Below, piece after piece: positions 46,676 through 64,000 of a stretch of 64,000 nucleotides of DNA. The notes under the pieces were generated by a model. That model saw nothing but the letters and a program-made list of their open reading frames with translations, did no database searches and was not told the DNA's origin. Every line of letters starts with the position of its first letter. Position 1 is the stretch's first letter. Both the position numbers and the translations under genes were made by a program. Source of the DNA: Yimella lutea (GTDB taxonomy: Bacteria > Actinomycetota > Actinomycetes > Actinomycetales > Dermatophilaceae). The stretch spans positions 2,790,001-2,854,000 of the forward strand of contig NZ_VFMO01000001.1 of NCBI RefSeq assembly GCF_006715095.1, written 5' to 3'.

Positions 46676-46702
46676 TTGTCGGGCACATCGCCGGGAAACA
46701 AG

Positions 46703-46736
46703 AATGGCTCCCGACCCTCGCGGGTCGGGAGCCATT
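46703..46736 (-). terminator. Strong hairpin terminator after secreted-protein gene
   Basis: Perfect 15-bp inverted repeat (aatggctcccgaccc / gggtcgggagccatt) with a TCGC loop, 9 bases past the stop at 46746. On the plus strand it is followed by TTTCC, so it may be bidirectional. Confidence 0.8.
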
Positions 46737-46745
46737 TCCGGGTGG

Positions 46746-47911: not shown

Positions 47912-48196
47912 TCAGCGGCAACCGTGCTTGGCGACCTCCAGCCGCACCATGCGCTCGTTGATCGGTTCCTGCTCACACACGACGAAGTTTGATTCGACGA
48001 GCACGCCGAACATCGCATCCTTCGCGTGAACGGAAGCCTCGACACCCGCAGACTTGAGCGCCGAACGGGCATCGGTCAGCACCATCCCCCGGACGTCAGG
48101 ACCAGCAGCTTTTTCACCGCATGCCGCATGTGAGGTCGCGATCAGTAGACAGGCGATTACACCCTGCACCGCACGCCGAGCCGAAGTCGACCTCAC
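47912..48196 (-). CDS. Small exported PASTA-like protein
   Basis: 94-residue protein. The N-terminal hydrophobic segment (RRAVQGVIACLLIATSHAACG) is a signal peptide or lipoprotein signal, although the lipobox is imperfect (His at -3). A single PASTA-like domain follows (PDVRGMVLTDARSALKSAGV, then VCEQEPINERMVRLEVAKHG). The GTG start overlaps the stop of the upstream PASTA-like gene by four bases (GTGA). Both end in similar domains and look like diverged tandem relatives. Confidence 0.6.
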   Translation of the reverse strand: MRSTSARRAVQGVIACLLIATSHAACGEKAAGPDVRGMVLTDARSALKSAGVEASVHAKDAMFGVLVESNFVVCEQEPINERMVRLEVAKHGCR

Positions 48197-48945
48197 GGGC
48201 ACTGCTCGGTGAGTTTCACGACGTCGAACGAAACGATCGTGGTGGCGGTCACGGTGGTTCCGGCACTCGGGGTCTGCGAGCAAACCTTCCAATTGCTGTC
48301 GAGAACCTGCCTGCGATTCGCTCCGAGCGCATCCGTCGAGAATGAGAGGTAGAGCGGGTCACCTGACACACGCTGGAGGTCGTCCTGGGCGATCTGGAGG
48401 ATCTGCCCGACCTCATTGGGCATGATGAACGGTGCCGCCGTGACGCCGGACGTCGCGGATTCGGTCGAAGCCGCCGGTGCCGAACTCGTCGTCGACGTAG
48501 TTTGGCTGGTTGGCGTCGCAGATTCGCTGGTGCTTGTCGAGGCAGACGCGGAGACCGGTTCCGACGAGGACGAGGTTGAAGGCGCGGCGGTCGAAGCAGG
48601 CGGCGTCGTAGTCGCAGTCGTAGTCGAGGACACCGCGGCCTCCGACGTGTCCTTCGCCGGCGCAACGATCGACCCGATGACGCCGATGAGAACGAACAAA
48701 CCCACGACCGCACCGGCCACGATCGCCATCGGGTGTTTCCACCACGGCCGTTTCCTCGGTGCAGGGCCGGGATCCGAAAGCCACGCGGGCGCGGGTCGAG
48801 TCGGAATGGGCTGCGTCTGGCTCACTCCCTGCGGTTCGGCGCCGACTGGGCTGGTGTGAGCGGTCCATTGCTGCCCATCCCAGTACCTCAGTTGACCCCC
48901 GCCCTGCGGATCGTCATACCAGCCTGGTTGTCCCGGATTCCCCAT
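48193..48945 (-). CDS. DUF2510 membrane protein with PASTA-like domain
   Basis: 250-residue protein. The N-terminus GQPGWYDDPQGGGQLRYWDG is a DUF2510 domain. A single transmembrane helix follows at about residues 73-93 (MAIVAGAVVGLFVLIGVIGS), then a Ser/Thr-rich stalk. The C-terminal extracellular PASTA-like domain includes MPNEVGQILQIAQDDLQRVS and KVCSQTPSAGTTVTATTIVS. It is probably a wall-facing sensor or anchor; no partner kinase is present. Confidence 0.75.
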   Translation of the reverse strand: MGNPGQPGWYDDPQGGGQLRYWDGQQWTAHTSPVGAEPQGVSQTQPIPTRPAPAWLSDPGPAPRKRPWWKHPMAIVAGAVVGLFVLIGVIGSIVAPAKDTSEAAVSSTTTATTTPPASTAAPSTSSSSEPVSASASTSTSESATPTSQTTSTTSSAPAASTESATSGVTAAPFIMPNEVGQILQIAQDDLQRVSGDPLYLSFSTDALGANRRQVLDSNWKVCSQTPSAGTTVTATTIVSFDVVKLTEQCP

Positions 48946-49589
48946 GAAGTGCCCCTAAACATACGATCGGCGGCCGTGTCGGCCACCGAGTTCATTGCGA
49001 AGTCGGCAGAGTCTAAGCAGGCATGGCCAGGCTTGTCTCAGCTTTCCGCAAAGCCCGGCGGAGCGACGCCATCACGTCAGAGCCGTGCCTCGCGACCGTG
49101 CTTGCGCAAGAGGCAGGGCTGCGATGACGAGCCGCCACCACGGGCCATTTCCTCGGTATCGCAGATGGGTCGATCGCAACGCAGATCGCCACAACACCCG
49201 CGATGACTGCCGATGAGGCATCGACGTGCTGACGGGTGGCGACCAGCGCATAGGGCTGCGGCGTCGACCACCCGGTGGCGGGTCTCACTGGCCATGTTTC
49301 GCGATCGAGCCCGGACACGCCGGGCCCCGCTCGTCACAGGCGTCGGCCGCACACCACGCGGTCTGCCCGGCTACTTCGATCGACTGGCTCCTGTTCGTGT
49401 CAACAGCCGCAGCCACCGCCGCCACCACCGGATTCCTCGCTTATCGGCCGGGTTCGCAACCGGCGGTAACGACTCACCCCAACTCGCAGCGCGATGTGTG
49501 TCATGAGTTGTAGCGTGCGACTGCTCACTAGTTGATGCCTCAACCGCCCGCAATGAGCACCCATCATCACTACTTCTCAAGGGGACGAG
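48946..49589. other. Gene-poor spacer
   Basis: About 640 bases between two surface-protein genes. Only short overlapping frames of GC-rich composition occur and none has a ribosome site or recognisable protein. A hydrophobic minus-strand run (SSAVIAGVVAICVAI) near 49200 is the only hint of an eroded membrane protein. I see no RNA gene. Confidence 0.5.
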
Positions 49590-50387
49590 TTGACCAATTT
49601 CGGACCGCCTTCCGGCGGGCAGGAGAACCCACAGCAGTACGGCAGTGCACCGAACTGCGGCACGCCCGACCGGCGGCAACCCGACAACTTGCCGCCGCAC
49701 GTGGCCCAGCCGCCCGCAGGCTTCGACCCGAAGGCGCAGGCCAAGGCGTCGCGGCCATGGTTCAAGAAGAAGCGCTACTGGCTGCTCGGTGTCGTCGCAG
49801 TGCTCATCATCGGCACGGCGGCCAACGGCGGTGGCAACTCCACGGATGCGTCGACGACCGCGTCCGACACGTCGACAACCACGTCCGGCACCTCGACGAG
49901 CAGCACGAGCGAGACCAGCTCCAGCCCTGAAGCGTCGCCTTCGACGGAAACGAGCAGCGCAAGCGAGTCGTCGACCTCCACCGAGGCGCCGAGCCCGACC
50001 GAGGAAGCCGCCGCGTCAGGTGGCGACACCGAAGCGTCGAGCACCAGCGCGGAGGCTCCGGCCAAGAACCCGAACCTCACTCCCTCCCAGGAGAACGCTG
50101 TGACGTCGGCGCAGAACTACCTCTCGTTCAGCGCGTTCTCGCGTCAGGGCCTCATCGATCAGTTGTCGTCGCAGTACGGCGACAAGTACCCGGTGAAGGA
50201 CGCCACGATCGCCGTCGACAGCCTCTCCGTCGATTGGAATGCACAGGCAGCGAAGGCCGCCAAGAATTACCTGCAAATGACCGGCTTCTCCTGCCAGGGG
50301 CTGATCGACCAACTGGCCTCGCAGTACGGCGATAAGTACACCCGTGCGCAGGCCACATACGGCGCGAAACAAAGCGGAGTCTGCTGA
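49590..50387 (+). CDS. Membrane-anchored protein with two Ltp-type repeats
   Basis: 265-residue protein. A cytoplasmic N-terminal part with Pro/Gln is followed by a transmembrane helix near residues 62-78 (YWLLGVVAVLIIGTAA) and an 85-residue Ser/Thr/Glu stalk. Two C-terminal repeats follow of the 'host cell surface-exposed lipoprotein' (Ltp) type: AQNYLSFSAFSRQGLIDQLS with SQYGDKYPVKDATIAVDSL, and AKNYLQMTGFSCQGLIDQLA with SQYGDKYTRAQATYGAKQSG. The phage TP-J34 Ltp protein blocks phage DNA entry; most chromosomal members are untested. TTG start with AAGGGGA five bases upstream. Confidence 0.82.
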   Translation: MTNFGPPSGGQENPQQYGSAPNCGTPDRRQPDNLPPHVAQPPAGFDPKAQAKASRPWFKKKRYWLLGVVAVLIIGTAANGGGNSTDASTTASDTSTTTSGTSTSSTSETSSSPEASPSTETSSASESSTSTEAPSPTEEAAASGGDTEASSTSAEAPAKNPNLTPSQENAVTSAQNYLSFSAFSRQGLIDQLSSQYGDKYPVKDATIAVDSLSVDWNAQAAKAAKNYLQMTGFSCQGLIDQLASQYGDKYTRAQATYGAKQSGVC

Positions 50388-50418
50388 CCTACGCCTGCCT
50401 CGAGGCGTAACTTCACGT

Positions 50419-50452
50419 GAGGTCCCGCGCACCGGATGGTGCGCGGGGCCTC
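50419..50452. terminator. Bidirectional hairpin terminator
   Basis: A 15-bp stem with one G-U pair (gaggtcccgcgcacc / ggtgcgcggggcctc) and a GGAT loop, 31 bases past the Ltp-repeat gene and directly at the end of the acyl-CoA dehydrogenase relic. Confidence 0.7.
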
Positions 50453-50670
50453 CCGCGCCATACCTACGCTGCAACTCCTTGGCGATCGTCATCAACTGGA
50501 TCTGAGAGGTGCCCTCGTAGATGCGCAGCACCCGAGCGTCCCGATAGCGCCGTTCGATCTCCGACTCGCGCAGGTAGCCGGCACCGCCGTGCACCTGCAG
50601 CGCGTCATCCGCGATTCGATGACAATGCCTCGGTCGCGACGTCCTTCGCGATCGACGCCCGCCGACCAGG
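50453..50670 (-). pseudogene. Acyl-CoA dehydrogenase C-terminal remnant
   Basis: The minus strand reads ASIAKDVATEA in one frame, then after a one-base shift near 50625 HRIADDALQVHGGAGYLRES, RRYRDARVLRIYEGTSQIQL and MTIAKELQRRYG. This is the last helical domain of an acyl-CoA dehydrogenase. The rest of the gene is missing and the normal stop has been lost. Confidence 0.85.
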
Positions 50671-50707
50671 CGGTCTGTCGGGACGCTTAGAGGTACAGCA
50701 CGCCGGT

Positions 50708-51221
50708 GTCCGGCTGTCGACCAAGTCGTACGTCGTGCTGGGGCTCATCGCACTGCGCGGCCCTCGACGTCGTACGACCTCAAGCGGCGGTCGGCCACTC
50801 GGTCGGCTACTTCTGGCCGCTCCCGCATGCGCAGCTGTATGCCGAACCCAAACGACTCATCTAAGCCGAGCTGCTCCGGATGGAGCAGGAGACCGACTCC
50901 CGCCGGCGACAGATCTATTCGCTCACGCCCGCCGGCCGCATGGCGCTGCGGGCGTGGCTGAAGGAGGCCGTCGGTGAACCGTTCCAGGTGCGCAACGTCG
51001 CCGAGCTCAAACTCTTCTGCGGCGAGCTCGCCGACGAGGAAGACCTCCGCGTCCTGGCTGAGGAGCATGTGACGTTGCACCGCGAGCGATTGGCGGAGTT
51101 CCAGCGCACGAGTGACCGGTTCGCCGCCGACGCCGACCGGGCCGGGCGGATGGTTCCGCTGGCGATGGGGGTGCGGTTGGAGGAGGCGGCGCTGGAGTTC
51201 TGGGAGGAGCAGTTGGGCTGA
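50708..51221 (+). pseudogene. Degenerate PadR-family regulator
   Basis: The pieces assemble into one PadR repressor: VRLSTKSYVVLGLIALRG, then after a frameshift STSYDLKR, then after a second shift AVGHSVGYFWPLPHAQLYAE. A TAA stop follows at 50862, and then in the same frame LLRMEQETDSRRRQIYSLTP and the C-terminal AphA-like helices to TGA at 51221. Two frameshifts, one nonsense codon and no usable start codon make it inactive. It lies head to head with the acyl-CoA dehydrogenase relic, so a regulator-target pair has decayed together. Confidence 0.85.
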
Positions 51222-51239
51222 GGCGCAGCACGCCGCTAG

Positions 51240-51768
51240 GTGCAGTAGCGTGCGACAGTCAGCGCGCGGTGAAGGCCATCATCGCGCCGGGGTGGGGGGA
51301 GGCTGCCCTGGCAAACGAGATTCGCCCTTCGCTCCTCAACCGATTTGCTCGGAGTTACCGAACCATCGGCGGGCACCTCGTGTTTCCTGCCAACCGGATC
51401 GGCGGCAAGGTGACGATTAACGGCGCGAAGGGCTTCCACCCGCGCATCAAGGACCGCAGCGGGCCTGACGCTCGAGTGCATCCGCCGGCACTACGCGGGC
51501 GTCGATAGCCCGCTCACTGAACCCCTCGCCAGATACGCCGACTTCTTTGCCCTTCGGCGATTTCGCCGGCTACGTCGACTTCTTCCTCTTGCAGGACGCC
51601 GTGAATCCGGACGGATCTGTCATCTACACGCCTTTTGCCGACTTCACCACCAGCCCACTGCCGACGTCTGTGTCCAACTATCGGGACTATCTCCAGGCGT
51701 GCATGACTTTCGTTGCGGCACGTGGCAACCGGATCGCAGTGTGGGCGACGCAGCAGCGCCTCGCCTAA
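51240..51768 (+). pseudogene. DUF6994-like gene with two frameshifts
   Basis: Three frames join as one protein: YRTIGGHLVFPANRIGGKVT with INGAKGFHPRIKDR, then LTLECIRRHYAGVDSPLTEP with ARYADFFAL, then FGDFAGYVDFFLLQDAVNPD with SNYRDYLQACMTFVAARGNR, ending in TAA at 51766. The order matches small DUF6994-type proteins of actinobacteria. The N-terminal part is also short, so the gene is truncated and twice frameshifted. Confidence 0.7.
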
Positions 51769-51778
51769 CCCTCCGCGG

Positions 51779-53561
51779 CTACTCCACGTCCTCTTCGATG
51801 TCGACCCCGTAGCCGACGGCAAGCCCAGCCAGGCGCCGTTGGTAGCCCTGACCGATCGCTCGGAACCGAAGCGCCCCGTTACGCCAATACACCTCAGCGA
51901 GAAGCATGCTCGTTTCGTCGGCGGCCGCATCGAGCGTCGCGCGCGCCAGCAACGAGCCGTCGCTCGATCGCACGCTCAGCTCAATAGCGCCGAGGACTCC
52001 GAACGTGCCATCACCATCGATCGCGGCGGCAAGGGTGATTCGTGAATCGATCGGAAGTGCCCCTGCCTGAACGTCGACGGACGCCTGGTCGGGCGTTGCG
52101 AGGTCGAGGTCGACGAGGCCGGTCGGATGGGTCGGTTGGTTGTAGAAACAGAAGTCCTCGTCGCGCGCGACGCTGCCCGTCGGATCCGTGACGAATGCGA
52201 CGACGTCGACTTCGTCGACCGCCTCGGCAGCGACCCAGGTGGCAGTAACGGTGAAGTCGAGGTGCGCGATATCGGTGACGCCACCTCGCGGGAGCGACAC
52301 CACGTCCACCGAATCGAGTTGCTGCGCCTCGTCATTCGCGCTGAGCTGCGAGGCACCGACAGGCTCGAGTGTCACTGGGTCGAGCTCGGTCAGAGCACGT
52401 TCCTTGACCTTCGAGATGCGCGCGTCTTTCTCGGCGTCCGCCAGCGCGACAAAGTCCGTCACGGTCATGGTGAGGTTCACCGCGCAGGTGCCACCAACCT
52501 CCTGCACACGGGTTCGCACGTCGGCCGCCTCATCGTGCGAGCCGCCGAGGATGATCACGCGCCTGCGCGAGAACCGCCCGGGGGCAGCCACTTTGGCACG
52601 CGGTCTCGGTGGGCTGAGCACGGGCACCGCGTCAGGCATCGTCTGCACGACAACCTGCGCCATCGTTCTCGGGTCACCTGGTTCGACCGAGTCGAGCAGC
52701 CCCATGAACTGCTCCTCGGTCATCAGGCTGGTGCCGTGCTTGAGCGCGAGATCCGCCTTGCGCGTGCCGAGTTCGCCGTTCGACACGAGGACGCTGGTGC
52801 GTGAACTCACCGAGTTCATCACGTCGAGACCGCACCGGGTTGCCGTCTCGATCAGCACCGCCCGGTCACGGTGCGTTTGACCGGTGAACACCACCGTCAT
52901 GCCTTGGCGCAGCGGTTGGCCAGGCACGTGCCGGCCGGGATACCGCCACATGCAGGGCGTGCGCGGCGCAACCGGCGGGTAACCACCGAGGAGGCGTGGT
53001 CGCGCGTAGGGCAACGGCAGTCCCAACCGGTGTGCCAACGCGAGCGAATGACGGGTGAGCTCGACGAGCGCACGTACGTCGTCCTCGGCATCGTGGGCAC
53101 GGTGTTGCTTGATGCCCCGGTAGTCGCACAGGCTCGCCAGCCTGAAATCGGCCAGGGGCAGGTCGAACCGCTGCGACAACTGGCAGGTACACAGTCTGAA
53201 GTCGGCGGGAAAGAGGTGCCCGGCTCGGGCGCGCTTCGTGGGCAAGGAAGTCCCAGTCGAACCGAGCGTTGTGCGCCACGACCACGCGCCGGCTAAGCAT
53301 CTCGTGGATCCGCGGAGCGACCTCGGCGTACCGGGGTGCACCGCGCAACCTTGCCCGGGTGATGCGATGAATCTCGACAGGGCCGGGGTCACGCTCGGGA
53401 TCGATCAGCGTTGACCATTGATCGGTCACGACACCGTTCGGCTCCATCTGGGCGATTGCGATCTGGACCACGCGGTCGCGACTCGCTGTCAGGCCGGTTG
53501 TCTCGACGTCGACAAGTGCGTACGGGCGGTCGTAGGTGTTTGCGACGCCAATCGGCAGCAT
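51779..53561 (-). pseudogene. Exonuclease-BRCT-BRCT-TerD fusion, frameshifted
   Basis: If one extra base near 53227-53233 (in a GGG run) is removed, the gene encodes 593 residues. A DEDDh exonuclease comes first: DVETTG as motif I, VVAHNARFDWDFLAHEA as motif II, and HDAEDDVRAL as motif III. A BRCT domain follows (GMTVVFTGQTHRDRAVLIET), then a second BRCT-like domain (RRRVIILGGSHDEAADVRTR), then a C-terminal TerD domain (VVSLPRGGVTDIAHLDFTVT; DEDFCFYNQPTHPTGLVDLD). The ATG at 53561 is 13 bases from an IS target duplication, so the natural promoter is displaced. Sequencing error in the GGG run would make it intact. Confidence 0.8.
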
Positions 53562-53573
53562 CACGACGTCCGG

Positions 53574-53581
53574 CCCGTCGT
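53574..53581. repeat. Left target-site duplication of the IS
   Basis: The octamer CCCGTCGT directly abuts the left IS end and is repeated exactly at 55072-55079. An 8-bp duplication fits the ISL3 family and shows a simple, recent insertion. Confidence 0.9.
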
Positions 53582-55071
53582 GGCTCCTTCCTACCTGAGG
53601 TGGGGGTGAGTGAGCCCGCCGCCGATGAGCAGCATGCGTAGCCGGTAGTGCTCGCGGTTGCGGAAGCCTCGGGCGACGCGTCGGTGGAGCTCGATCAGGC
53701 CGTTGATCGCCTCCGTGCCGCCGTTGTTGGCGCGGCTGGTGTCGAAGTAGGCCAGGAACGCTGCCCGCCACTGCTTCAGGGTCTTACCGAGCCGTCGGAT
53801 CTCCGGGATCGGACAGGTCGGCAGCGAGGCCAGGATTTTCTCCGCGATCCGCCGGCCCTCGACCGTGCTCTTGGCCTGGTAGGCCGACCGGAGCTGTTGG
53901 GTGCACAGCCACGCGACGAGCACTTCGTCGTGACGTTCGTCGGCAGCGATCGCACGGTCGAGCCGTGCCCGTTGCCGGTCGGTGAGCTTCTCCTGCCCGC
54001 AGCGCAGGATCGTGCGGATGCCATAGAGCGGGTCGTTCTTGCGGCCACGGTGACCATGGATCTCCTGCTGCACCCGACGGCGGACCTCATCCACGGCCTG
54101 GGTACCGAGCTTGACGACATGGAACGCGTCCAGGACCGCGACCGCGTCCTCGAGCTGGTCATCGATGGCGTTCTTGTAGCCGTGGAACGGGTCCAGTGTG
54201 GCGACCACGACACCGTCACGGAACTCCTGGCCACGTTCGGCAAGCCAGTCGCTGTACACCTTCCCGGACCGGCCCGGCACCAGGTCCAGCAACCGCGCCC
54301 GCGGCTTGCCGTCAACGTCGGGTGTCAGGTCGACCATCCCGGTCAGCTGCTTCGGACCGCGGCCACCCTCGGCGATCGGGAACTCGGACACGTGATGCCA
54401 CACGTGCTCGTCCACGCCGAGTCGCGTCACGCCGGCGAACCGATCCTCGTCGTCGGCCATCTCCTGCAGAAGTGGCCGGATCGAGGACCACACCGTGTTC
54501 CACGTCGTCCCCAACTGTCGGGCGATCCCGCTGATCGAGCCGTGCTCACGGCGGATCTGATTGATCGCCCACCAGCAGGCCCGCGTAGTCAGCAGCGCCC
54601 GCGGTCGAGCGATGTCCTCGTCTTGCTCGGTGAACGCCTTCCTCGGGCAGGCTGCCTCCTGGCAACGCCAGATCCGCTTGCGCCACACCACTTGGACCGG
54701 GCGGTCGAAGCACGGCGCGTCGACCAGCGTGACGTCACTGCGGCCGTGGCTGTGCGCAATCACGCCGCAGCTCGGGCAGCCCATCGGCGTCCGGGGCGAC
54801 TCCACACCAACGACCAGCAGCCCGACGTCGTGGTCGTACTCGACGGCGGTCACGCGCAATTCACCGAGCCCGACCAAAAGATCGCAGCGCGAGCAGTAGC
54901 GGGTGTCGCGATGGCAGCGCGCAGCGATGTGCGCCGTAGGCTCGGACAACGTCGAGGTCCTTCGGAACGGTGTGCTTGGTCGCCACTGATCCTGAAGGCC
55001 TCGACGTCCCTCACCCCGCAGCCAAGCTCATACCGGCGCGCCTCTCACCCCCACCGCAACTCGGAAGAGCC
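53582..55071 (-). mobile_element. Complete ISL3-type insertion sequence
   Basis: 1490-bp element with one transposase gene. The left end (53582-53612, GGCTCCTTCC... GGTGGGGGTGAG) and the complement of the right end (55041-55071, GGCTCTTCC... GGTGGGGGTGAG) form imperfect terminal inverted repeats of about 30 bp with one gap. Perfect 8-bp direct repeats CCCGTCGT flank it. The transposase stop codon lies inside the left terminal repeat. Confidence 0.92.
53591..54949 (-). CDS. ISL3-family transposase
   Basis: About 452-residue DDE transposase. The N-terminal zinc-binding parts (YCSRC, GCPSCG and the CQEAAC pair) are followed by a helix-turn-helix region (GSISGIARQLGTTWNTVWSS). The catalytic core has RLGVDEHVW (first Asp), LDAFHVVKLGT (second Asp) and NGGTEAINGLI (Glu). 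It looks intact, so the element may be active. A TTG at 54949 is the first possible start; later codons are possible. The last codons lie in the terminal repeat. Confidence 0.92.
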   Translation of the reverse strand: MSEPTAHIAARCHRDTRYCSRCDLLVGLGELRVTAVEYDHDVGLLVVGVESPRTPMGCPSCGVIAHSHGRSDVTLVDAPCFDRPVQVVWRKRIWRCQEAACPRKAFTEQDEDIARPRALLTTRACWWAINQIRREHGSISGIARQLGTTWNTVWSSIRPLLQEMADDEDRFAGVTRLGVDEHVWHHVSEFPIAEGGRGPKQLTGMVDLTPDVDGKPRARLLDLVPGRSGKVYSDWLAERGQEFRDGVVVATLDPFHGYKNAIDDQLEDAVAVLDAFHVVKLGTQAVDEVRRRVQQEIHGHRGRKNDPLYGIRTILRCGQEKLTDRQRARLDRAIAADERHDEVLVAWLCTQQLRSAYQAKSTVEGRRIAEKILASLPTCPIPEIRRLGKTLKQWRAAFLAYFDTSRANNGGTEAINGLIELHRRVARGFRNREHYRLRMLLIGGGLTHPHLR

Positions 55072-55079
55072 CCCGTCGT
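55041..55079. repeat. Right terminal repeat and right target duplication
   Basis: The terminal inverted repeat spans 55041-55071 and the second CCCGTCGT spans 55072-55079. Beyond it the host sequence continues into a 220-base region that should hold the original promoter of the exonuclease-TerD gene and the promoter of the DUF2075 gene. Confidence 0.9.
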
Positions 55080-55303
55080 CAGGTCGGTGCGCTGTGCGTG
55101 CGTTGTCGAGTTGCGAACCATGGTGCCCCTTGTCCCCGGTCGTTCAAAGCAGACGCTATCGGGCACCACTGACCCTTACCCGAGGCGAGGTCATCTCCGA
55201 GGAAGTCGTTTGTCATAGAGTGCCCACGTCAACGCGGATCGACGAGCTTCCTTGATGGACACGCTCCCCCGCACGCCTTTGTCGTGCTGCCCGGGAGCCA
55301 AAG

Positions 55304-57154
55304 ATGTCGTCGCTGCTACGCCAGTCTGCTGGCAGCTTCTCCGTCGCTGAGCAATACCTGGAGGAGCGCCTGGCCGAGCAGTTGGCGACGCGAACGGGTC
55401 AGTGGCCGTCGCCCGCTGAGCGCAGGTCGTGGAGCCGGAGCCTCCCCGCGCTCGCGGCCGATCTCGTGAGCGCAGGTCGGTCTGATGTCGAGATGCTCAT
55501 CGAGTACCAACTGCCACTGACGAGCAAGCGCGCCGATGTGGTGCTCGCCGGGGTGGACTCGAACGGCGAACCGACCTACCTGGTGGTCGAACTGAAGCAG
55601 TGGACCGACGCCACGATGTTCGAGGACAGCGATGACCTCGTGAGCGTTCCCGGCTACGCCCGACCGGTGAGCCACCCGATCGATCAGGTGCGCGGCTACT
55701 GTGAATACCTGACCGACTTCGTGATGACACTGCGCGGCAAGGAACAGAGCGTCCGCGGAATCGCATACTTGCACAACGCGACCGACTCCGACGTGCATGA
55801 TCTCCTCGCGAAGCCGTCCGATGGTTTCGGACGCCTCATCACCGGCCAGCGACGCGGCGAGTTCCAGGAGTTGCTGCGTTCGACCTTTGCTCCGACCAGC
55901 GGCGCCGAGGCTGCAGACCGGCTGAGCGGCAGCGGCATCGCGCCGTCGAAGCAGCTCATGGCGCTTGCTGCCGACGAGGTGCAGCACCGCGAGCAGTTCG
56001 TGCTGCTGGACGAGCAGCTCGACGCCTACAACTACGTGCTCCACTGCGTGAACGACGCTCGCCGCCGCAACACCAAGACCGCAGTGATCGTCTCGGGCGG
56101 TCCCGGCAGCGGCAAGAGCGTCATTGCCCTCTCGCTCATGGGCGAACTCGCCCGACAAGGCCGGACGGTGGTGCACGCCACCGGTTCGCGGTCGTTCACC
56201 CAGACGCTGCGCAAGGTCGCCGGCCGGCGCGCACCACGCGTGCAGAAGGCGTTCCAGTACTTCAACTCGTTCATGGCTGCCGAACCCAACGACCTCGACT
56301 GCCTGATCCTCGACGAGGCTCACCGCATCCGGCAGACGTCCGCCAACAGATTCACGAAGGCGCAGTTCCGGACCGGGCGGCCTCAGGTCGACGAACTGCT
56401 CAGTGCCGCACGGGTTCCGGTGTTTCTCCTCGACCAGTACCAAGTGGTGCGTCCTGGTGAGCTCGGAACCGTCGAGGACATCGAGGACGCGGCACGCGCA
56501 CGCGGGATCGACGTGCTGCGGGTCGATCTCGACGGACAGTTCCGGTCGGGTGGGTCGAAGGAGTACATCACCTGGGTGAAGCGCCTGCTCGAGCTCGAGC
56601 AGGGTGACCAGGCGTGGCCGGGCACCGACCGGTTCGAGGTTCACGCGATGGGGTCGCCCGAGGAACTCGACGCGTGGCTGCGGAGCAAGCAGGACGCCGG
56701 CTACTCCGCCCGGATCGCCGCCGGCTACTGCTGGCCGTGGAGCGATCCGCGGCCCGACCAGACCCTCGTGCCCGACGTCCGGATCGGTGATTGGGCACGT
56801 CCGTGGAATCTGAAGGGCGACCGCTCGGTCGGTGGCGCGCCCGCCGCCGCCCTGTGGGCCACCGACCCGGCCGGCTTCGGCCAGGTCGGCTGCATCTACA
56901 CCGCGCAGGGTTTTGAGTACGACTATGCCGGCGTAATCATCGGCCCCGACCTGGTGCGCCGCAACGACAGGTGGCTGACCGTGCGGTCGGCGAACCGTGA
57001 CCCGGACTTCAAGAACCGCACCCGCGTTCCCGACCAGCAGTTCGACCGGCTCGTGCGGCACGTCTACAAAGTGCTGCTCACCCGCGGCTTGCGCGGGGTG
57101 GGCATCTACTCGACCGACGCCGAAACGATGCTCTATATGAGATCTCTTGTCTGA
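55304..57154 (+). CDS. DUF2075 helicase/ATPase with nuclease-like N-terminus
   Basis: 616-residue protein. The N-terminal region (about residues 60-110) has RADVVLAGVDSNG then YLVVELKQW, an acidic-Lys pattern like PD-(D/E)XK nucleases. The DUF2075 (Schlafen-like/UvrD-type) ATPase core has Walker A SGGPGSGKSVIAL near residue 265, Walker B CLILDEAHRI near residue 330, and motif-like FLLDQYQVV and GFEYDYAGVI. GGGAG six bases before the ATG sets the start. DUF2075 proteins recur in phage-defence loci; the exact role is unknown. It is divergent from the IS-bearing exonuclease gene. Confidence 0.8.
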   Translation: MSSLLRQSAGSFSVAEQYLEERLAEQLATRTGQWPSPAERRSWSRSLPALAADLVSAGRSDVEMLIEYQLPLTSKRADVVLAGVDSNGEPTYLVVELKQWTDATMFEDSDDLVSVPGYARPVSHPIDQVRGYCEYLTDFVMTLRGKEQSVRGIAYLHNATDSDVHDLLAKPSDGFGRLITGQRRGEFQELLRSTFAPTSGAEAADRLSGSGIAPSKQLMALAADEVQHREQFVLLDEQLDAYNYVLHCVNDARRRNTKTAVIVSGGPGSGKSVIALSLMGELARQGRTVVHATGSRSFTQTLRKVAGRRAPRVQKAFQYFNSFMAAEPNDLDCLILDEAHRIRQTSANRFTKAQFRTGRPQVDELLSAARVPVFLLDQYQVVRPGELGTVEDIEDAARARGIDVLRVDLDGQFRSGGSKEYITWVKRLLELEQGDQAWPGTDRFEVHAMGSPEELDAWLRSKQDAGYSARIAAGYCWPWSDPRPDQTLVPDVRIGDWARPWNLKGDRSVGGAPAAALWATDPAGFGQVGCIYTAQGFEYDYAGVIIGPDLVRRNDRWLTVRSANRDPDFKNRTRVPDQQFDRLVRHVYKVLLTRGLRGVGIYSTDAETMLYMRSLV

Positions 57155-57231
57155 CAACTAAATTCACCACACCGCGGATCGACAGGCTTTCGACCTAGGA
57201 CATGCCTCCCCGCTCTTCTCCGAGGAGCAGC

Positions 57232-58154
57232 ATGTCTACCGCTTGGATCGTCGCCATCGACCGGGAGAACCCCGAGCACTGGCGGATCGCCTGCGAGAAC
57301 TCGTTCTGGGACATGACGTCACGGCGCGATATCCGCGCCGGGGACGTCGTCTACTTCTGGCAGTCCGGCGAGAGCTTCGTCGGGAGCGTGCGTGTGCTCG
57401 ACGACCTCCATGAAACGCTGCCGGGCACTGAAATGCCCTGGAACATCGACGACGCGAAGCGGAGCAACTACCGGTTCCGATTCAACTTCGTGCTCGAGCA
57501 CGCGACGTCCGCGGGGCAGCCGACCGGGAAAGAAGTTGCTAAGAACGCGGGTGCTCCGGCATTGCACACCAAGCCGCACATCACCGATCCCGATTCCATG
57601 CGATGGCTCGAGTCTCAGGTCGCTGGTGTCGCCCTCCACGCCGACCCGGTGTGGAGCACCGACGAGACCGGGCTGGTGTCGCCCTCCACGCCGACCCGGT
57701 GTGGAGCACCGACGAGACCGGGCTGGTGTCGGTGGAGGACATGGCGTCCGACAATCGCATCCGCGTCCCGGCAGATGTAGTGCGCAGGCAAGGCAGCGGC
57801 AAGTTCCGCGCCGACGCGGTCCGGGCCTACGGCGAGCGATGTGCGGTAACCGGCACCGACGTGCTGCCGATCCTGGAGGCAGCGCACATCATGGAGTACA
57901 AGGGGCCGCACACCAATGTCGTGACGAACGCTCTTCTGCTCAGGTCGGACATCCACACGCTGTTCGATCTGCACTTGCTAACCATTGGCCCGGAGCATCG
58001 AGTGCACCTGGCGCCTGCGGTTCGAGCGTCGCAGGAATACGCCGGTCTACACGGCCAACAGCTCCGGCTACCAAACGACCAGGCGGCCCATCCAGACGCC
58101 GAGTGGCTGCGCGCGCACAACACCAAGTGCAGCAGTTGGTTTGGTCGCGGCTAG
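57232..58154 (+). pseudogene. EVE-HNH endonuclease gene split by a 50-bp tandem duplication
   Basis: The 5' part encodes an EVE/PUA-like domain (STAWIVAIDRENPEHWRIAC; IRAGDVVYFWQSGESFVGSV), a fold that reads modified bases. The 3' part, in another frame, encodes an HNH nuclease (RAYGERCAVTGTDVLPILEA then AHIMEYKGPHTNVVTNALLL and SDIHTLFDLHLLTIGP). Removing one copy of the 50-bp repeat restores one continuous frame of 290 residues. AGGAG precedes the ATG at 57232. As sequenced, the protein would end soon after the EVE domain. The architecture fits a type IV-like restriction enzyme against modified phage DNA. Confidence 0.85.
57622..57721 (+). repeat. Exact 50-bp tandem duplication within EVE-HNH gene
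   Basis: Two identical 50-base units (57622-57671 and 57672-57721), beginning gctggtgtcgccctccacg and ending gacgagaccgg. A ten-base start of a third unit (gctggtgtcg) follows at 57722. Fifty is not a multiple of three, so the extra copy shifts the frame. The ten-base homology at the ends explains both formation and possible loss by slippage. Confidence 0.95.
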
Positions 58155-58206
58155 CGAGCGCGATTCCTGGCGTACTTCTCCGAACTACACCCCGATTGTC
58201 TGACCT

Positions 58207-60336
58207 GTGCACCAAGATGCGTCCATGCCCGCCACCCCGTCTCGTTATGAGTGGATGCCGTCCGCACTCCCGATGCTCTTCGGCGAAGAGCCGGAAGTCT
58301 CCGATCCGTGGCCTGGCCTGCTGAATGCGGTCGCCGATTTCCAAGGGACCGTAAACGAGATTGAGATTCAAGCCGTTCGTGACCGAGCGGAAGCCGGCCT
58401 GCCCCCACAGGTGACTCGCGGGGACGAACCTGCCCGTCCGCCGACAACGGACCGGTCCGGGGATCCGACGACGCCCATGCGGGTGGTCTTGATGGGCCGG
58501 ACGATGGCTGGCAAGTCGTCGCTGCTCGCTGCACTCACCGGTTCTCACTTCGACCGCGTCGGGGACGGACGGCAACGGTTCTCCCGGGATGTTCTCGCGG
58601 TCACCGCGGCTGTGTCTGATGCGATCGAGATCGTCGATACCCCCGGGGTCGGCGCCTACGAGGGCGTCGACGACACGGCCTTGGCTCTCGACGCCGCACG
58701 CGAGGCGGACGTCGTGCTGTGGGTCAACAGCAGCGACTCCGTTCAGGAAGAATCGGCGGTCGCGTTGCGACAGCTGGGCCTAATCGGCAAGCCGATCATT
58801 GTTGTCCTCAACTGCAGACAAGCGTTGGAAGGCGTGGGCCGGCTAAATCTGCTTCGTTTCCCGGAACGAGTGTTCGGCCAGAAGGACGCCCTCGTGGTGG
58901 AGATCGAGGCACATCTTGCTCAGGCGAGCGTGCGCGCGCTTGGGGTGGTCTACGTGCACGCGCTCGCGGCCGAAGCAGCGCTGGCTGACCCGGAGGCGAG
59001 GGTCGAGCTTCACGCAGCGAGCCGGATCAACGACCTCACGGACGCCCTGCTGCAGGAACAGCGCGCACATAGCGAGAGTCGCCGCGCACTTCGCTTGGTT
59101 GACGCCCAGCGCCAAGGCGCTGCGGAACTTGAGCGGTCGCTCGGGAGCGACATGGCGACCCTCCGCGCACAGGCAGAGCACGACCGCCAGAAGACGGCAG
59201 ACCTTCACTCCCGTCTGCGACGCGTCGTTCATACCGCCGGCGAGGAGATGGTGGCCGACGTCAAGAGAGCGGTGGGCAAGAGACGCGACTGGCACCTGCA
59301 GGCCACAGACTTCGGTCCGACACTGGAGGGAGAGTGGAAGGCAGAACTTTCTACCTTGAAGGAGGAGATCGAGCCGCTGCTCAAGACGCGATCCGCCAAG
59401 CTTGCAGCCGATATTCGGTCGGCGACGGAAGCTGCAGAGAGCGAGTGGGCGAGCGTACCGCTCAACGATTTCGGCTCAATCGACCTATCAGACTTCGGCT
59501 CAGTCTGGGGCAACCGCGCCCTGCGAGCCACGGTGGCACTGGTCAGCGTCGCAGTCATCAGCGCCATCGGCGCCGTTGTCGCCGGGCCAGGCGGCCTTGC
59601 TGCCGGAGTCAAGGCGGCAGCCATAACCAGCACCGTCGCAACGCCCGTCATTTCGATCGCTGCGAGTCGGCTAAACGATCGCATCAACCAAACCGTCCTC
59701 GGGAAGCCCGAAGTACTTCGTAGGAGGCGCCAGCAGCTCGCAGAAAAAGTCGGGCCAATCCTCGATCAGTTTTCCAAGGCCTATGTGGAAGCGATCGGCC
59801 AAAGTCTCGGGAAGCTCAGCGACACCCTCACCGATCAGCAGAGGCGAGCCGAGTCAGACGCCGGCGCCCTCGACGACGCTGCTGCCCGCCTGGCTGACCA
59901 CCGCAACAAGTTACACGCAACGCTCACCGAACTGGACCTGCAGACCACGAAGGCACTGCTCCGCATCGCCGGACGCGAGCGGCTCGCTCACTCAGTGAGG
60001 CGGTCGACGCGGGTGCCGGGCGTATGCATCCTGACCGAGCTGACCGAGACGGGCTTCCACGAAGCCTGGCTGTATCCACCAGACATCGGCGAGAAGCTCA
60101 GCGGCGGCAAAGCGCCACCTCTCCGTGGTGAAGCAGCGAGTGCGCTCAGCTACACCCTGAGCCTCATCGATGCCCCAGTCAATTTGCTGGAGGCATCGGC
60201 CCAGTCTGCGCACGTCCACATTGACACTGATATCCCACCCGCGATCGCCGAAACTTGGGGAGATGCCCTCGCCACACACATCGGTAAGAGCGTTCAGATC
60301 ACGACGACCAAGAAAGGCGCAGAATCGCATGAATGA
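58207..60336 (+). CDS. Dynamin-like GTPase, first of a pair
   Basis: 709-residue large GTPase. The G domain has G1 VLMGRTMAGKSSLLAAL near residue 95 and G3 EIVDTPGVGAYEG near residue 140; in place of NKxD the G4 position has VVLNCRQALEG. Long helical regions (about residues 285-420 and 525-610) and two hydrophobic segments near residues 440-495 (TVALVSVAVISAIGAVVAG; AAAITSTVATPVISIAAS) suggest membrane insertion or remodelling, as in bacterial dynamins. The start is GTG 58207 or ATG 58225. Its 3' end overlaps the second GTPase gene by eight bases, so they are co-translated. Confidence 0.8.
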   Translation: MHQDASMPATPSRYEWMPSALPMLFGEEPEVSDPWPGLLNAVADFQGTVNEIEIQAVRDRAEAGLPPQVTRGDEPARPPTTDRSGDPTTPMRVVLMGRTMAGKSSLLAALTGSHFDRVGDGRQRFSRDVLAVTAAVSDAIEIVDTPGVGAYEGVDDTALALDAAREADVVLWVNSSDSVQEESAVALRQLGLIGKPIIVVLNCRQALEGVGRLNLLRFPERVFGQKDALVVEIEAHLAQASVRALGVVYVHALAAEAALADPEARVELHAASRINDLTDALLQEQRAHSESRRALRLVDAQRQGAAELERSLGSDMATLRAQAEHDRQKTADLHSRLRRVVHTAGEEMVADVKRAVGKRRDWHLQATDFGPTLEGEWKAELSTLKEEIEPLLKTRSAKLAADIRSATEAAESEWASVPLNDFGSIDLSDFGSVWGNRALRATVALVSVAVISAIGAVVAGPGGLAAGVKAAAITSTVATPVISIAASRLNDRINQTVLGKPEVLRRRRQQLAEKVGPILDQFSKAYVEAIGQSLGKLSDTLTDQQRRAESDAGALDDAAARLADHRNKLHATLTELDLQTTKALLRIAGRERLAHSVRRSTRVPGVCILTELTETGFHEAWLYPPDIGEKLSGGKAPPLRGEAASALSYTLSLIDAPVNLLEASAQSAHVHIDTDIPPAIAETWGDALATHIGKSVQITTTKKGAESHE

Positions 60337-62062
60337 CAACCTCTTTAAGGAGTCGTCGGCGACCACGAGAATGCTTGGAGACGAGCTCAGGCAGCTATTG
60401 AGGGAGATCGACCCAGCCCAGGGGGAGCCTCTCCTCGATCGGCTCGCAGTAGAAGACCACGCCGTTCCGCTACTTGTCTTCACCGGCTACCACAGCAGCG
60501 GCAAGTCGACCCTCATCGAGGCGCTCACCGATCGGACGTTCAATGTGCCCATTGGGTCTGGGGTGACAACAGATTCCGTCACTGAGTACGACTGGGATGG
60601 CGATGTGAGGCTCGTTGACACACCCGGTGTCCATGCCGGCCGCCCCCACCATGACGAGCTCGCCGAGCAAGCCTTGCAGTCCGCGGACCTCGTGTTGTTT
60701 GCCGTGCCGGTCGAGTTGTTCGATGACACGCTTGTCGCTCACCTGCGTGATGTTCTTGGCCGGCTGGGAAAATCCCGTCAGACGCTGATGGTGATCACGA
60801 AGGCTGGAACGATGCCAACGCCGGCACCCGGCGTGCGTGAGCAAGCGATCCTCGAAGCGCTCGGGCCATTCGACAAAGTTCCGTGGGTTGAGTGCGATGC
60901 CCAGTACTACCTCGACGGCCTCGACTTGGCCACCTCTGCGCCCGCCGACTCGGCTGCGTTTATCGAAGCGTCCAATCTCGCCTTGGTGGCCGACCGCATC
61001 AACGGCTTCGCTCGAGATCACGGGACCATCGGGCGCGTGAGCCAGCCATTGCAACAGCTGCTGGCAATCTCGATCGAAGCCTCCGCATCCTTAGTAGACG
61101 ACCCTGACGAGCAGGCGTCCCTCACAGTGCTGGCAAGGCAACGATCCGCGCTTTCGAAGAAGCGCATTCATCTCGACGGCCAGCTAGAGGCGCAGGTAGC
61201 GCAGTTCCGCGGTGACGCGGTGCGGGCTGCGACCCGCTTCGCTGACGCCATTGAGACGGCCGACGATCATGGCACCGTCACCGACGAGAAGGTTCAGGAC
61301 GAAGTGGCGGACCTTAATAAGCAGTTGAGGACAGCGCTGACGAGCTTCGAGAGCTCCGTTCAAGACACCCTCCAGGCCCAGTTTGACGACCTCGCATCCG
61401 AGGTCCTCGAGATTGAGGCATCGCCGTATGGACGGGTAGCCGTTCGGCTCGGGGACGTGCAGGCGGAAGCTCTCGGTATGGACGAGGTATCGGTCCGTGC
61501 TGGCTCCACCACGTCCCAGCGCTCAGCCCCTCGCTGGGCAGGTGATCTGTCTGAACACCTCAAGAAGTTCCATCAGATGTGGGGCGCGGGCGACGGGGTG
61601 AAGGCAGCTTCGCAGAGCAACGGTCACAAGATCGTCTTAAGCCTCGGGCATACATTCGGAAAGAAGTTCAAGCCATGGGAAGCGGCGAGGACCGCCAACA
61701 CGATCGGAAGAGCCGTCAAGGTCGGTGGCGCTGTCATCGCAGTCGGGAGCCAGTTGTACGACGTCTACGCCGGCGAGCGTGACGCCGTCGCGACGGAGCG
61801 GGCACGGGCGGAGCGTCGCCGCAACATCACCCAGGAAGTCCTCGCCCAAGCCGACGACATCTCTGCGAATGCGCTGCGCACCGTGCGAGCAGGCTTGGAT
61901 GAGACGCTCTCCCCCGAGTTTCAGCGCATCGATGCCATGGCAGACGCCATCCACGGCGCGCGTTCGACGCGGTCCGACCATCGATCGCGCCTCGGCTCGA
62001 TCCAGGATGGTGCACGTGCAGCACTGGCCAGGTTGGCACCGGATGAGGTTAGTGCCGGATGA
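60329..62062 (+). CDS. Dynamin-like GTPase, second of a pair
   Basis: 577-residue GTPase. G1 is VFTGYHSSGKSTLIEAL near residue 53, G3 is VRLVDTPGVHAGRP near residue 92, and G4-like VITKAGT near residue 155. Helical stretches follow (ALSKKRIHLDGQLEAQVAQF; ADLNKQLRTALTSFESSVQD), with a short hydrophobic patch at VKVGGAVIAVGSQLYDVYA. The ATG at 60329 overlaps the end of the first GTPase gene. Paired dynamin-like GTPases are the core of the Eleos (LeoA/LeoBC-like) defence systems; the match here is of layout and fold, not proven orthology. Confidence 0.8.
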   Translation: MNDNLFKESSATTRMLGDELRQLLREIDPAQGEPLLDRLAVEDHAVPLLVFTGYHSSGKSTLIEALTDRTFNVPIGSGVTTDSVTEYDWDGDVRLVDTPGVHAGRPHHDELAEQALQSADLVLFAVPVELFDDTLVAHLRDVLGRLGKSRQTLMVITKAGTMPTPAPGVREQAILEALGPFDKVPWVECDAQYYLDGLDLATSAPADSAAFIEASNLALVADRINGFARDHGTIGRVSQPLQQLLAISIEASASLVDDPDEQASLTVLARQRSALSKKRIHLDGQLEAQVAQFRGDAVRAATRFADAIETADDHGTVTDEKVQDEVADLNKQLRTALTSFESSVQDTLQAQFDDLASEVLEIEASPYGRVAVRLGDVQAEALGMDEVSVRAGSTTSQRSAPRWAGDLSEHLKKFHQMWGAGDGVKAASQSNGHKIVLSLGHTFGKKFKPWEAARTANTIGRAVKVGGAVIAVGSQLYDVYAGERDAVATERARAERRRNITQEVLAQADDISANALRTVRAGLDETLSPEFQRIDAMADAIHGARSTRSDHRSRLGSIQDGARAALARLAPDEVSAG

Positions 62063-62180
62063 GCCTGCGACGTCGTATGGCCCGGGTTGAGAGCCAAAGA
62101 CGGCACCTCGTGGCGGTCGGCACGCCCACGGACCACGTCGGATAGGGTCGCCCGAGGACAAGCACCGCAAGGGGGACACG

Positions 62181-64000
62181 ATGGCGGGTGACCGTTGGAC
62201 TGAGGTCAGTCCGTCGCAGTTCACCCATGAGGCCGAGGGCCTCCAGATCGTCCGCAGACTGCTCCCCGACGAGCCACCGTTCCGGGCGTGGTCCAACTTT
62301 GAGTTCCGTGATGGCCAGGGTCGCTGGCATGAGGTCGATCTGCTCGTCCTCACCCGCGACACCCTGCATCTCGTCGAGATGAAGTACTACTCCGGCGTGC
62401 TGCACGGCGACGATCATCGCTGGTTGCGAGCCGGCAAACGTGCCGAGGATTCGCCGCTCAAGCTTGCTCGCCGCAAGGCGCAGTACTTCAAGAGCAAGCT
62501 GGTCACCGAACTCGACAACTGGGCACGGGAGCGCGGCGCGCACGGCGTCGACCCTCGGGAGATCGTTCCGTTCGTCAAGGAGTCGGTCTTCCTCCATCAC
62601 CCCAACCTCCGGTGTGAGCTCTCGGAGAGCTCGAAGCTCGGGCTCTACGGCCTTGATGGGTCGACCCACTCGCACCTGCCTGGCATCTCCGAGCTGCTGT
62701 TGGCGCCACCGCGGCACAAGCCGATTGGCGCGAACCAGGAGGAGATTCTCGCCCAGCTCATCGCACGGCTCGGCCTCGTTCAACGCCGGGAGCGCGAGGC
62801 TGGCTCCTGGGTCATCACCGATTCGGCTGCCGTTGATGAAGGATCCGGGTGGCAGGAGTGGTTCGCTTCGCACCGCGTCGCCCACCAGGAGCAGGCGCGC
62901 ATCCGCTTCCAGACGACTCCCGCCGACGCAGCGGAAAGCGAACGTCAACGGGTCCGAATGCTTGCCGACCACGAGTTCCGCATCATGTCGCGGCTTCACC
63001 ACGACGGCTTGGTCTGCCCCCGCGACATTGTCGACTCCGACCTCGGCGTCGGTCTCGTGTACGACCACGACGACCAGTGGCGCCGCCTCGATCTGTGGAT
63101 GGCCGACCGCGAAGGCCAGCTCCCTCTGACCACCCAGCTGTCGGTCGTTCGGCAGATCGGCGAGGCGCTGCAGTACGCGCACTCCAACAAGGTTGTACAC
63201 CGGTCGCTTACACCCCGAGCTGTTTGGGTGCGCGAGCTGGCAACCGACGACGAGGTGAAGGTCAAGGTCAGCGACTGGCATGGGTCAGGCGTTGTCGACG
63301 GCGGAACCTCACTTGGGCCGGGCGTGACCTCGCTCATGGGTGCCCAGACGGGTGCCTCGAGCGCGGGCATGAGCGACGAAAGCGACGCCGAGCAGTGGGC
63401 GTCCTCGTCGTTCCGCGCTCCCGAGGGCGTTTGGAACGCCGCGGCCGATCGCGTGCGGCTGGACGTCTTCGGTCTCGGCGCCCTCGCGTTCTACATCCTT
63501 ACCGGACGTGGCGCGGCAAGCAGCGCCATCGGGCTGCGCGATCGGCTCCGGGCCCAGGACGGACTCGACGTTTCGGTCGAACTTTCCCATGTTTCAAGCG
63601 AACTGCGAAACGCGATTCTTCGGGCGACCAACCCCTCACCGACCAAGCGGCTTGGCGACGTGAGCGCCTTTCTGCAGCTCCTTGCCCAGGCGGAACGAGC
63701 CGCAGCAACACCCGATGACTCCGATGACGACCCGCTGGATGCCCTTCCAGGGGCTGTGCTCTCGGGTCGCTTCGAACTGATTCAGCGCCTCGGAAAGGGC
63801 TCGACGGCGGTAGGGCTTCTGGTACGAGACCTCCTCGCACCAGAAGGAACGCCTGAGCGGGTCCTGAAAGTCGCGCTCAACGACGATGCCGCCGCGCGCC
63901 TGGTGGACGAGGCGGAGGTGTTGCGTGGCCTACGCAGCCCTCGCCTTGTGAAGCTTGTCGATGGTCCGCTTTCAGTGGGTGAACGACGCGCGTTGTTGCT
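62181..64000 (+). CDS. PglW-like NERD-kinase protein, 3'-truncated by window edge
   Basis: At least 606 residues, open at the right edge. The N-terminus is a NERD nuclease-related domain (FEFRDGQGRWHEVDLLVLTR, then LHLVEMKYYSG), with the D..E.K pattern. A first kinase-like domain has HRSLTPRAVWV in place of HRDxKPxN and VSDWHG in place of DFG, so it is probably a pseudokinase. A second kinase domain begins at about residue 525 (LSGRFELIQRLGKGSTAVG then RVLKVAL with the ATP-binding Lys). This layout is that of PglW, a kinase of type 2 BREX (Pgl). AGGGGG five bases before the ATG at 62181 sets the start. Other pgl genes would lie beyond 64000. Confidence 0.82.
   Translation, partial: MAGDRWTEVSPSQFTHEAEGLQIVRRLLPDEPPFRAWSNFEFRDGQGRWHEVDLLVLTRDTLHLVEMKYYSGVLHGDDHRWLRAGKRAEDSPLKLARRKAQYFKSKLVTELDNWARERGAHGVDPREIVPFVKESVFLHHPNLRCELSESSKLGLYGLDGSTHSHLPGISELLLAPPRHKPIGANQEEILAQLIARLGLVQRREREAGSWVITDSAAVDEGSGWQEWFASHRVAHQEQARIRFQTTPADAAESERQRVRMLADHEFRIMSRLHHDGLVCPRDIVDSDLGVGLVYDHDDQWRRLDLWMADREGQLPLTTQLSVVRQIGEALQYAHSNKVVHRSLTPRAVWVRELATDDEVKVKVSDWHGSGVVDGGTSLGPGVTSLMGAQTGASSAGMSDESDAEQWASSSFRAPEGVWNAAADRVRLDVFGLGALAFYILTGRGAASSAIGLRDRLRAQDGLDVSVELSHVSSELRNAILRATNPSPTKRLGDVSAFLQLLAQAERAAATPDDSDDDPLDALPGAVLSGRFELIQRLGKGSTAVGLLVRDLLAPEGTPERVLKVALNDDAAARLVDEAEVLRGLRSPRLVKLVDGPLSVGERRALL

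Follow-up and report, generated by a model that had tools for sequence, protein, structure and literature searches.

Yimella lutea carries, within an island of about 37 kb, a complete BREX (bacteriophage exclusion) type 2 operon that is preceded and interrupted, on the same strand, by further genes of defence-type families, among them a pair of dynamin-like GTPases (LeoBC and LeoA) and a Schlafen-type helicase (SLFN-g3). The DNA under study, here called the window, is a stretch of 64,000 nucleotides (bases 2790001-2854000) of a genome that forms a single contig of 3,533,116 bases. It holds the left part of the island only; positions above 64000 continue the window numbering and were read from the same genome past the window edge (loci L002-L004). 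The island spans 46.1-83.2 kb and was probably acquired horizontally. We give a probability of roughly 0.8 to the reading that it is a defence island, probably of horizontal origin, with a full BREX-2 core and extra layers on one strand. Going by the families of its genes, the island would stop phages in Yimella lutea.

The BREX type 2 core and its additions

The core of the island is made up of pglW, pglX, pglY, pglZ, brxD and brxHI, a complete BREX type 2 operon on one strand and in canonical order (Table 1). A sequence-only reading of the window, which breaks off within pglW, had listed six consecutive defence-type genes (for an exonuclease-BRCT-TerD protein, a DUF2075 protein, an EVE-HNH protein, two dynamin-like GTPases and a PglW-like NERD-kinase), with an insertion sequence (IS) among them, broken genes and relics upstream. 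All of these were found. One of the upstream relics is a fragment of an acyl-CoA dehydrogenase gene, and the NERD-kinase proved to be pglW itself, heading the operon. Its full-length product scores 1302.9 bits against NCBIfam BREX_PglW (NF033442; cut-off 990), with NERD (53.8 bits) and Pkinase (102.5 bits) domains. Beyond position 64000, where the same reading had proposed to continue the search, the defence island it suspected turned out to be larger than the window shows. PADLOC models for PglX, PglY/BrxC, PglZ, BrxD, BrxHI, LeoBC, LeoA and PDC-S48 were matched in the island, PglW being matched by NCBIfam.

Table 1. Features of the Yimella lutea island, in window numbering
Feature	Position	Strand	Remarks
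Lipoprotein_Ltp protein	49590-50387	+	two stretches; PF07553 104.5 bits; inside island, upstream of 51779
Acyl-CoA dehydrogenase C-terminal fragment	50016-50594	-	gene relic of 41 residues; left part of island
DEDDh exonuclease-BRCT-TerD gene (PADLOC PDC-S48)	51779-53561	-	RNase_T, BRCT and TerD domains
ISL3-family IS	53582-55071	-	1490 bp; 8-bp target duplication; transposase open reading frame 53591-54949
SLFN-g3 (DUF2075, now PF09848) helicase	55304-57154	+	N-terminal PD-(D/E)XK-like motif; PF09848 282.3 bits
HNH endonuclease gene	57202-58154	+	EVE-like N-terminus; halves in different frames
LeoBC-like dynamin GTPase	58207-60336	+	PADLOC LeoBC 163.8 bits
LeoA-like dynamin GTPase	60329-62062	+	PADLOC LeoA 220 bits; open reading frame overlaps leoBC by 8 bp
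pglW	62181-66401	+	NERD, tandem kinase-like stretches; first operon gene; cut by window edge at 64000
pglX	66407-69961	+	NCBIfam 1713.5 bits
GmrSD-family gene	69962-71923	+	between pglX and pglY
pglY	71920-75693	+	PADLOC BrxC/PglY 1471.3 bits, full length
pglZ	75675-78476	+	NCBIfam 748.1 bits
brxD	78473-79813	+	PADLOC 674.9 bits
brxHI	79816-81924	+	PADLOC 977.6 bits

Relative to known BREX type 2 (Pgl) systems, the six genes, their order and their strand are the same; Yimella lutea adds a GmrSD-family gene between pglX and pglY, and its operon is immediately preceded, on that strand, by the SLFN-g3, HNH and LeoBC-LeoA genes. All genes from the start of SLFN-g3 to the end of brxHI lie on the plus strand, separated by successive gaps of 47, 52, -8, 118, 5, 0, -4, -19, -4 and 2 bp (values that rest on the starts of the longest or chosen open reading frames), and the whole run may be co-transcribed. 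Streptomyces pglX has a homopolymer switch; only two 7-G runs occur across 51.5-83.2 kb, and a switch of that kind was rejected here.

Among 394 genomes of the class, PglX of BREX type 2 is above cut-off in 51 and BREX type 1 is found in five; the best two first-look candidates per genome were scored in these searches, which makes the copy counts lower bounds. Genes in the fetched loci were chosen by a third-position GC score and not by a gene finder. Full-length relatives of PglW also exist on plasmids; no dynamin or GTPase pair is annotated in the two plasmid regions viewed (one of which has an 'ATP/GTP-binding protein').

A variable site in related genomes

The island is flanked by an aldehyde dehydrogenase gene at 46.1 kb and a serine ammonia-lyase gene at 83.15 kb. 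The distance between the matches to these two genes is 92 bp in G005 and 33 bp in G006, two genomes of the same family, and 1.8 kb and 3.6 kb in G001 and G002, two genomes of the same genus. In the latter two, the gap is filled by other genes and not by the island, and the site is therefore a variable one. A gene order shared by all close relatives had been named in the sequence-only reading as something that would speak against a defence island; the 37-kb island is instead absent from the matching site in these four relatives (a fifth, G020, is uncounted: in the stretch fetched, matches were limited to its lyase side and one gene lying more to the left). At that site, G001 and G002 both carry a macrodomain-like gene, and G002 (L042 9463-13048) also has a 672-aa gene with a TerD-like start, both labels coming from a reading of the sequence.

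No tRNA was detected at the island ends in window positions 40000-64000 or in L004, the two stretches scanned, and no direct or inverted repeats of at least 13 bp were found between 45901-47200 and 81901-83300. Integration at a tRNA is thus unsupported in the stretches scanned. Known RNA elements at gathering level were likewise absent from window positions 46000-64000.

Dynamins beside BREX systems

The two genes directly upstream of pglW encode adjoining dynamin-like GTPases. As in LeoABC (Dynamins) systems, both the LeoBC and the LeoA model are matched and leoBC is followed by leoA; the LeoA-like protein also matches the solved LeoA structure 4aur (E value 8.3e-12). Unlike LeoABC, the Yimella lutea pair belongs to an actinobacterial subfamily far under the NCBIfam LeoA/HP0731 model, and it is placed 118 bp before pglW.

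Leo pairs were gathered from an alignment-based scan of named genomes (15 loci), a LeoBC-model search of the 394 genomes of the class, and G027. The model search matched 12 of the 394 genomes, including Yimella lutea, with 12 other copies in the 11 further genomes; here, as for SLFN-g3 below, the best three first-look candidates per genome were scored, and the counts are lower bounds. leoBC and leoA lie side by side in 12 of the 15 loci of the alignment-based scan (and weakly in L025), and LeoA is found alone in L019 (a 4.3-kb contig) and L024. The 22 loci counted are L011-L023, G280, G383, G360, G217, G164, G249, G241, G295 and G027. Left out were L024 (partial), L025 (24% identical), G063 and two G194 copies (75-85 bits), G246 (the same contig as L014), and four weak LeoA matches in G004, G010, G047 and G055 (E values of 7e-4 to 2e-5), where the check for BREX consisted of tblastn on 2-3.5-kb loci only.

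The Leo pair is linked to BREX in eight of the 22 loci, to type 1 in five and to type 2 in three, representing about five lineages; counting the first five of the left-out places as unlinked gives 8 of 27. BREX was sought in these loci by tblastn with few query proteins, so that diverged systems could escape. Because BREX-1 is rare in the sample (5 of 394 genomes) and BREX-2 PglX is above cut-off in 51 of the 394, adjacency in eight of 22 loci is far above random placement, in what is an informal comparison. A LeoA tree of 21 rows (the window and 20 of the 22 loci) requires seven changes of the BREX-linked label, with long branches and some placements unsure.

The arrangements differ between loci. 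In Intrasporangium calvum (L020), the order is pglX-pglZ-brxL-leoBC-leoA, and a gap of 48 bp separates leoBC from brxL. A SIR2-HerA pair is interposed in Tessaracoccus bendigoensis (L018) and Enemella dayhoffiae (L023), both with the order pglZ-brxL-SIR2-HerA-leoBC-leoA, and Tessaracoccus sp. MC1679 (L022) has pglZ-brxL-gajA-gajB-leoBC-leoA, where gajB and leoBC overlap by 4 bp. The Gabija pair between BREX-1 brxL and leoBC in L022 (4332-7912) scores 748 bits for GajA and 641 bits for GajB. In L102 (G295), the Leo pair is divergent beside a BREX-1 system whose pglX, pglZ and brxL are on the opposite strand. For BREX-2, three loci besides Yimella lutea, L077 (G383), L082 (G280) and L091 (G360), encode a fused LeoBC-LeoA protein (1265, 1270 and 1298 residues, respectively) divergent from pglW, an assignment based on the LeoBC model for all three and on PADLOC for L077 and L091. 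The gene next to the fusion has a GTPase domain in L077 and L091, and is a LeoA by PADLOC in L091. The dynamin pair as a fixed part of BREX-2 is rejected, as it adjoins just three of the 45 BREX-2 loci fetched.

Some neighbours of Leo pairs that lack BREX were also searched. PADLOC gave no match at 1e-6 for six single neighbours (L011, L012, L014, L016, L017 and L021) and none at 1e-10 for one neighbour in L015; for the helicases of L013 and L015, matches to GajB- or RecD-type models are partial only. Relatives of the Leo proteins on plasmids are distant only (24-34% identical).

A Schlafen-type helicase with a nuclease-like N-terminus

The first gene of the one-strand run was described in the sequence-only reading as a DUF2075 protein with a nuclease-like N-terminus. 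Its helicase part was borne out, with a PF09848 score above cut-off, Walker A and B motifs, and model residues ~228-616 matching superfamily 1 helicases and SLFN11. The N-terminal motif is conserved: E63, D78, E96-x-K98 and Q128, together with the P-loop and DEAH residues, are invariant in 24 of 24 rows, and the motif and the helix-strand order fit PD-(D/E)XK. Support from fold searches was not obtained for this half, their lists being filled by matches to the helicase half. AbiO-Nhi and PDC-S41 give weak PADLOC matches (34 to 57 bits) over the nuclease-like or the helicase part; unlike these, the Yimella lutea protein has a helicase half of Schlafen group 3.

SLFN-g3 (E value of at most 1e-60) is represented by 71 copies in 57 of the 393 other genomes. 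BREX-2 PglX occurs in 18 of these 57 genomes, versus 50 of 393 overall, and in those 18 genomes, 21 of 27 SLFN-g3 copies (15 genomes) are located within 25 kb of pglX: 17 upstream and four downstream, ten on the same strand and 11 on the opposite strand. Within the 20-kb extent of the fetched loci, SLFN-g3 is seen in seven of 45 BREX-2 loci. The comparison family PF00350, with 123 rows outside Yimella lutea in 41 BREX-2 genomes, has two of these rows within 25 kb of pglX, both of them Leo fusions. A PglX tree made by a quick method (44 of 46 rows, those of L052 and L081 missing) needs eight changes of the SLFN-g3 label. Yimella lutea PglX falls in a clade of six rows (SH-aLRT 100), of which five, the window included, have Leo, SLFN-g3 or both nearby; G360 (L091) has both, like Yimella lutea.

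A GmrSD enzyme inside the operon

The protein encoded between pglX and pglY has GmrSD_N (99.2 bits) and GmrSD_C (65.3 bits) domains, both above cut-off. Its gene begins immediately behind the pglX stop codon and shares its last 4 bp with pglY, and is therefore built into the operon. BrxU, as described for a BREX-1 locus, is a GmrSD enzyme encoded between brxC and pglX that gives complementary protection (PMC8565348). The Yimella lutea protein resembles it as described there, with a DUF262 (PF03235) N-terminus, a GmrSD C-terminal PF07510 domain and a DGQQR motif in the translation, and its gene likewise lies between the pglX and brxC (pglY) genes. Unlike the BrxU locus, which is of type 1, the Yimella lutea locus is a BREX type 2 locus with the order pglX-gmrSD-pglY. 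Cutting of modified phage DNA is the predicted activity, by analogy with this family. A 2026 survey of BREX (PMC12839542) includes in its account GmrSD and other nucleases as BREX auxiliaries.

As a common arrangement, this found no support. With the window protein as tblastn query, GmrSD was found between pglX and pglY in none of the 45 other BREX-2 loci, and in the 42 genomes searched, the 5 kb downstream of pglX gave no PF03235 match. Across these 42 BREX-2 genomes, 10 of 55 GmrSD_N copies are within 25 kb of pglX (55 of 56 rows, a second piece of one G385 gene being dropped). The interval between pglX and pglY measures 1.7-6.7 kb in 12 of the 37 BREX-2 loci (L049-L093) with pglY in view, and the junction therefore looks like a cargo slot. 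Genes seen in such intervals include a weakly DzbB-like gene (L091), a gene for a PLD-domain protein weakly like ZacB (L071) and one for an AAA protein (L056).

Recruited layers or neighbours at a hotspot

We tentatively propose, at somewhat below even odds, that Leo dynamins, and in BREX-2 also SLFN-g3, are recurrently recruited accessory layers of BREX, with the dynamins forming a membrane arm on a replication-blocking system. The dynamins would have been attached several times. In BREX-1 they stand at the brxL end, either directly or with a Gabija or SIR2-HerA pair in between, and in one case divergently at the opposite end; in BREX-2 they stand at the pglW end, as two genes or fused. That unrelated defence modules have instead gathered at one insertion hotspot, with Leo, SLFN-g3, GmrSD and BREX each working alone, has about an even chance. 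Such gathering would account for the 14 of 22 Leo loci without BREX, the 50 of 71 SLFN-g3 copies that are not within 25 kb of a BREX-2 pglX, the many places at which GmrSD genes near BREX-2 sit, the other genes at the same site in G001 and G002, and the SIR2-HerA or Gabija pairs between brxL and the Leo pair. It fits less well with the occurrence of Leo genes next to BREX-1 as well as BREX-2, in varied gene orders and in several LeoA lineages, with the share of SLFN-g3 copies near pglX in BREX-2 genomes, and with a GmrSD gene set into the operon at spacings of 0 and -4 bp.

Several observations weigh against the preferred reading of a complete BREX-2 core with added layers. PglY is below the NCBIfam equivalog cut-off (NF047891, 990.3 versus 1700 bits); we read it as a divergent PglY because the PADLOC BrxC/PglY model matches it at full length. 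LeoA widely misses the NCBIfam LeoA/HP0731 model (49.9 versus 325 bits). Fourteen of the 22 Leo loci have no BREX in the fetched flanks, some of which are short; among the Leo loci as a whole, L012, L018, L019 and L101 have a short flank. The linked loci are not independent, as they include two groups of close kin (L018, L022 and L023; L077 and L082). Among LeoA proteins, the nearest relatives (L011-L015, 61-71% identical) have no BREX match, and the link in Yimella lutea may therefore be a one-off island neighbourhood. Finally, the gap between leoA and pglW could hold a promoter that splits the run into separate units.

It is unlikely that the Leo pair serves general membrane maintenance or vesicle release and rides along with the defence genes. 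E. coli LeoA/B has been tied to vesicle release, in an account that considers tandem dynamins as possible heterodimers (PMC4159319). The pair, however, closes runs of BREX, Gabija and SIR2-HerA genes, and two later papers treat 'Dynamins' as a defence system. Even less likely is an island that is decaying and silent, since two frame-broken genes and an IS 20 bp from a gene start contrast with the seven genes of the BREX operon, SLFN-g3, leoBC and leoA, all open frames without internal stops, the broken defence genes being the leftmost one and the HNH gene only.

Broken genes and other residents

Both of these genes are out of frame. In the exonuclease-BRCT-TerD gene the frame changes near 53.2 kb, which leaves pieces at 52866-53771 and 51779-53392, and PDC-S48 scores 139 and 80.3 bits on the two pieces. 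The ISL3 element is inserted 20 bp upstream of the likely ATG of this gene; two further copies in the genome have 100% (rounded) identity. The HNH gene contains an exact 50-bp tandem duplication (57622-57671 and 57672-57721), and the DNA that matches it in G001, at 78% identity, is shorter by 50 bp. An intact relative, P0122 from Calidifontibacter indicus, has an open frame of 290 residues. A 10-bp partial third copy follows the second unit (57622-57731 overall), and for this reason slippage is a possible origin of the duplication; it is perhaps reversible and could act as a switch. The exonuclease-BRCT-TerD and HNH layers are probably switched off in Yimella lutea.

As for the EVE-HNH assignment, the HNH part stood (HNH_2, 45.5 bits, cut-off 21), whereas EVE is weakly supported: Pfam EVE (cut-off 23) reaches 13.6 bits on the window fragment, and two intact relatives give 17.0 and 14.7 bits. 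A fold model of a relative was unusable (pLDDT 32.7).

Further left, the island includes a Lipoprotein_Ltp gene. In a Streptococcus phage, Ltp has a role in superinfection exclusion, and the gene in Yimella lutea may for this reason be another phage-resistance gene. At the other end, between brxHI and the serine ammonia-lyase gene, 82333-83000 (L003 19333-20000) holds an IS110 transposase relic (65.6 bits), a sub-threshold integrase-core match and a 69-residue open-ended open reading frame without a Pfam match.

Possible workings and significance

Taken together, the island would act in layers. PglX would methylate host DNA at its own, presumed motif, and PglW, PglY, PglZ, BrxD and BrxHI would detect incoming DNA that is unmethylated and keep it from replicating. 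Modified phage DNA that gets past BREX could then be cut by the GmrSD enzyme, in the manner of BrxU at its BREX-1 locus. SLFN-g3 may process invader or damaged nucleic acid, either by degrading or by sensing it. The last layer would be LeoBC-LeoA at the membrane, where the pair would delay lysis or seal damage, as for Bacillus DynA, which is described as delaying lysis while phage replication is not stopped (PMC8844932).

Every core component of the island is of a known kind. What is new is the repeated linkage of bacterial dynamins with BREX, antiviral strategies that are normally catalogued apart from each other, and a further linkage, that of a little-studied helicase family with a nuclease-like N-terminus to BREX type 2. 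In a limited search of open-licence literature, no report of a Leo-BREX or SLFN-g3-BREX-2 linkage was found. Two papers covering both BREX and dynamins name dynamins as a system of their own, and the terms 'dynamin', 'GTPase' and 'DUF2075' do not occur in the main text of the BREX survey PMC12839542. A GmrSD gene between pglX and pglY suggests that more than one BREX type came to be paired with a modification-dependent nuclease. If the dynamin linkage is functional, BREX would have a membrane back-up for infections that it does not stop, and the phages against which the dynamin pair counts most should be those able to evade or inhibit BREX.

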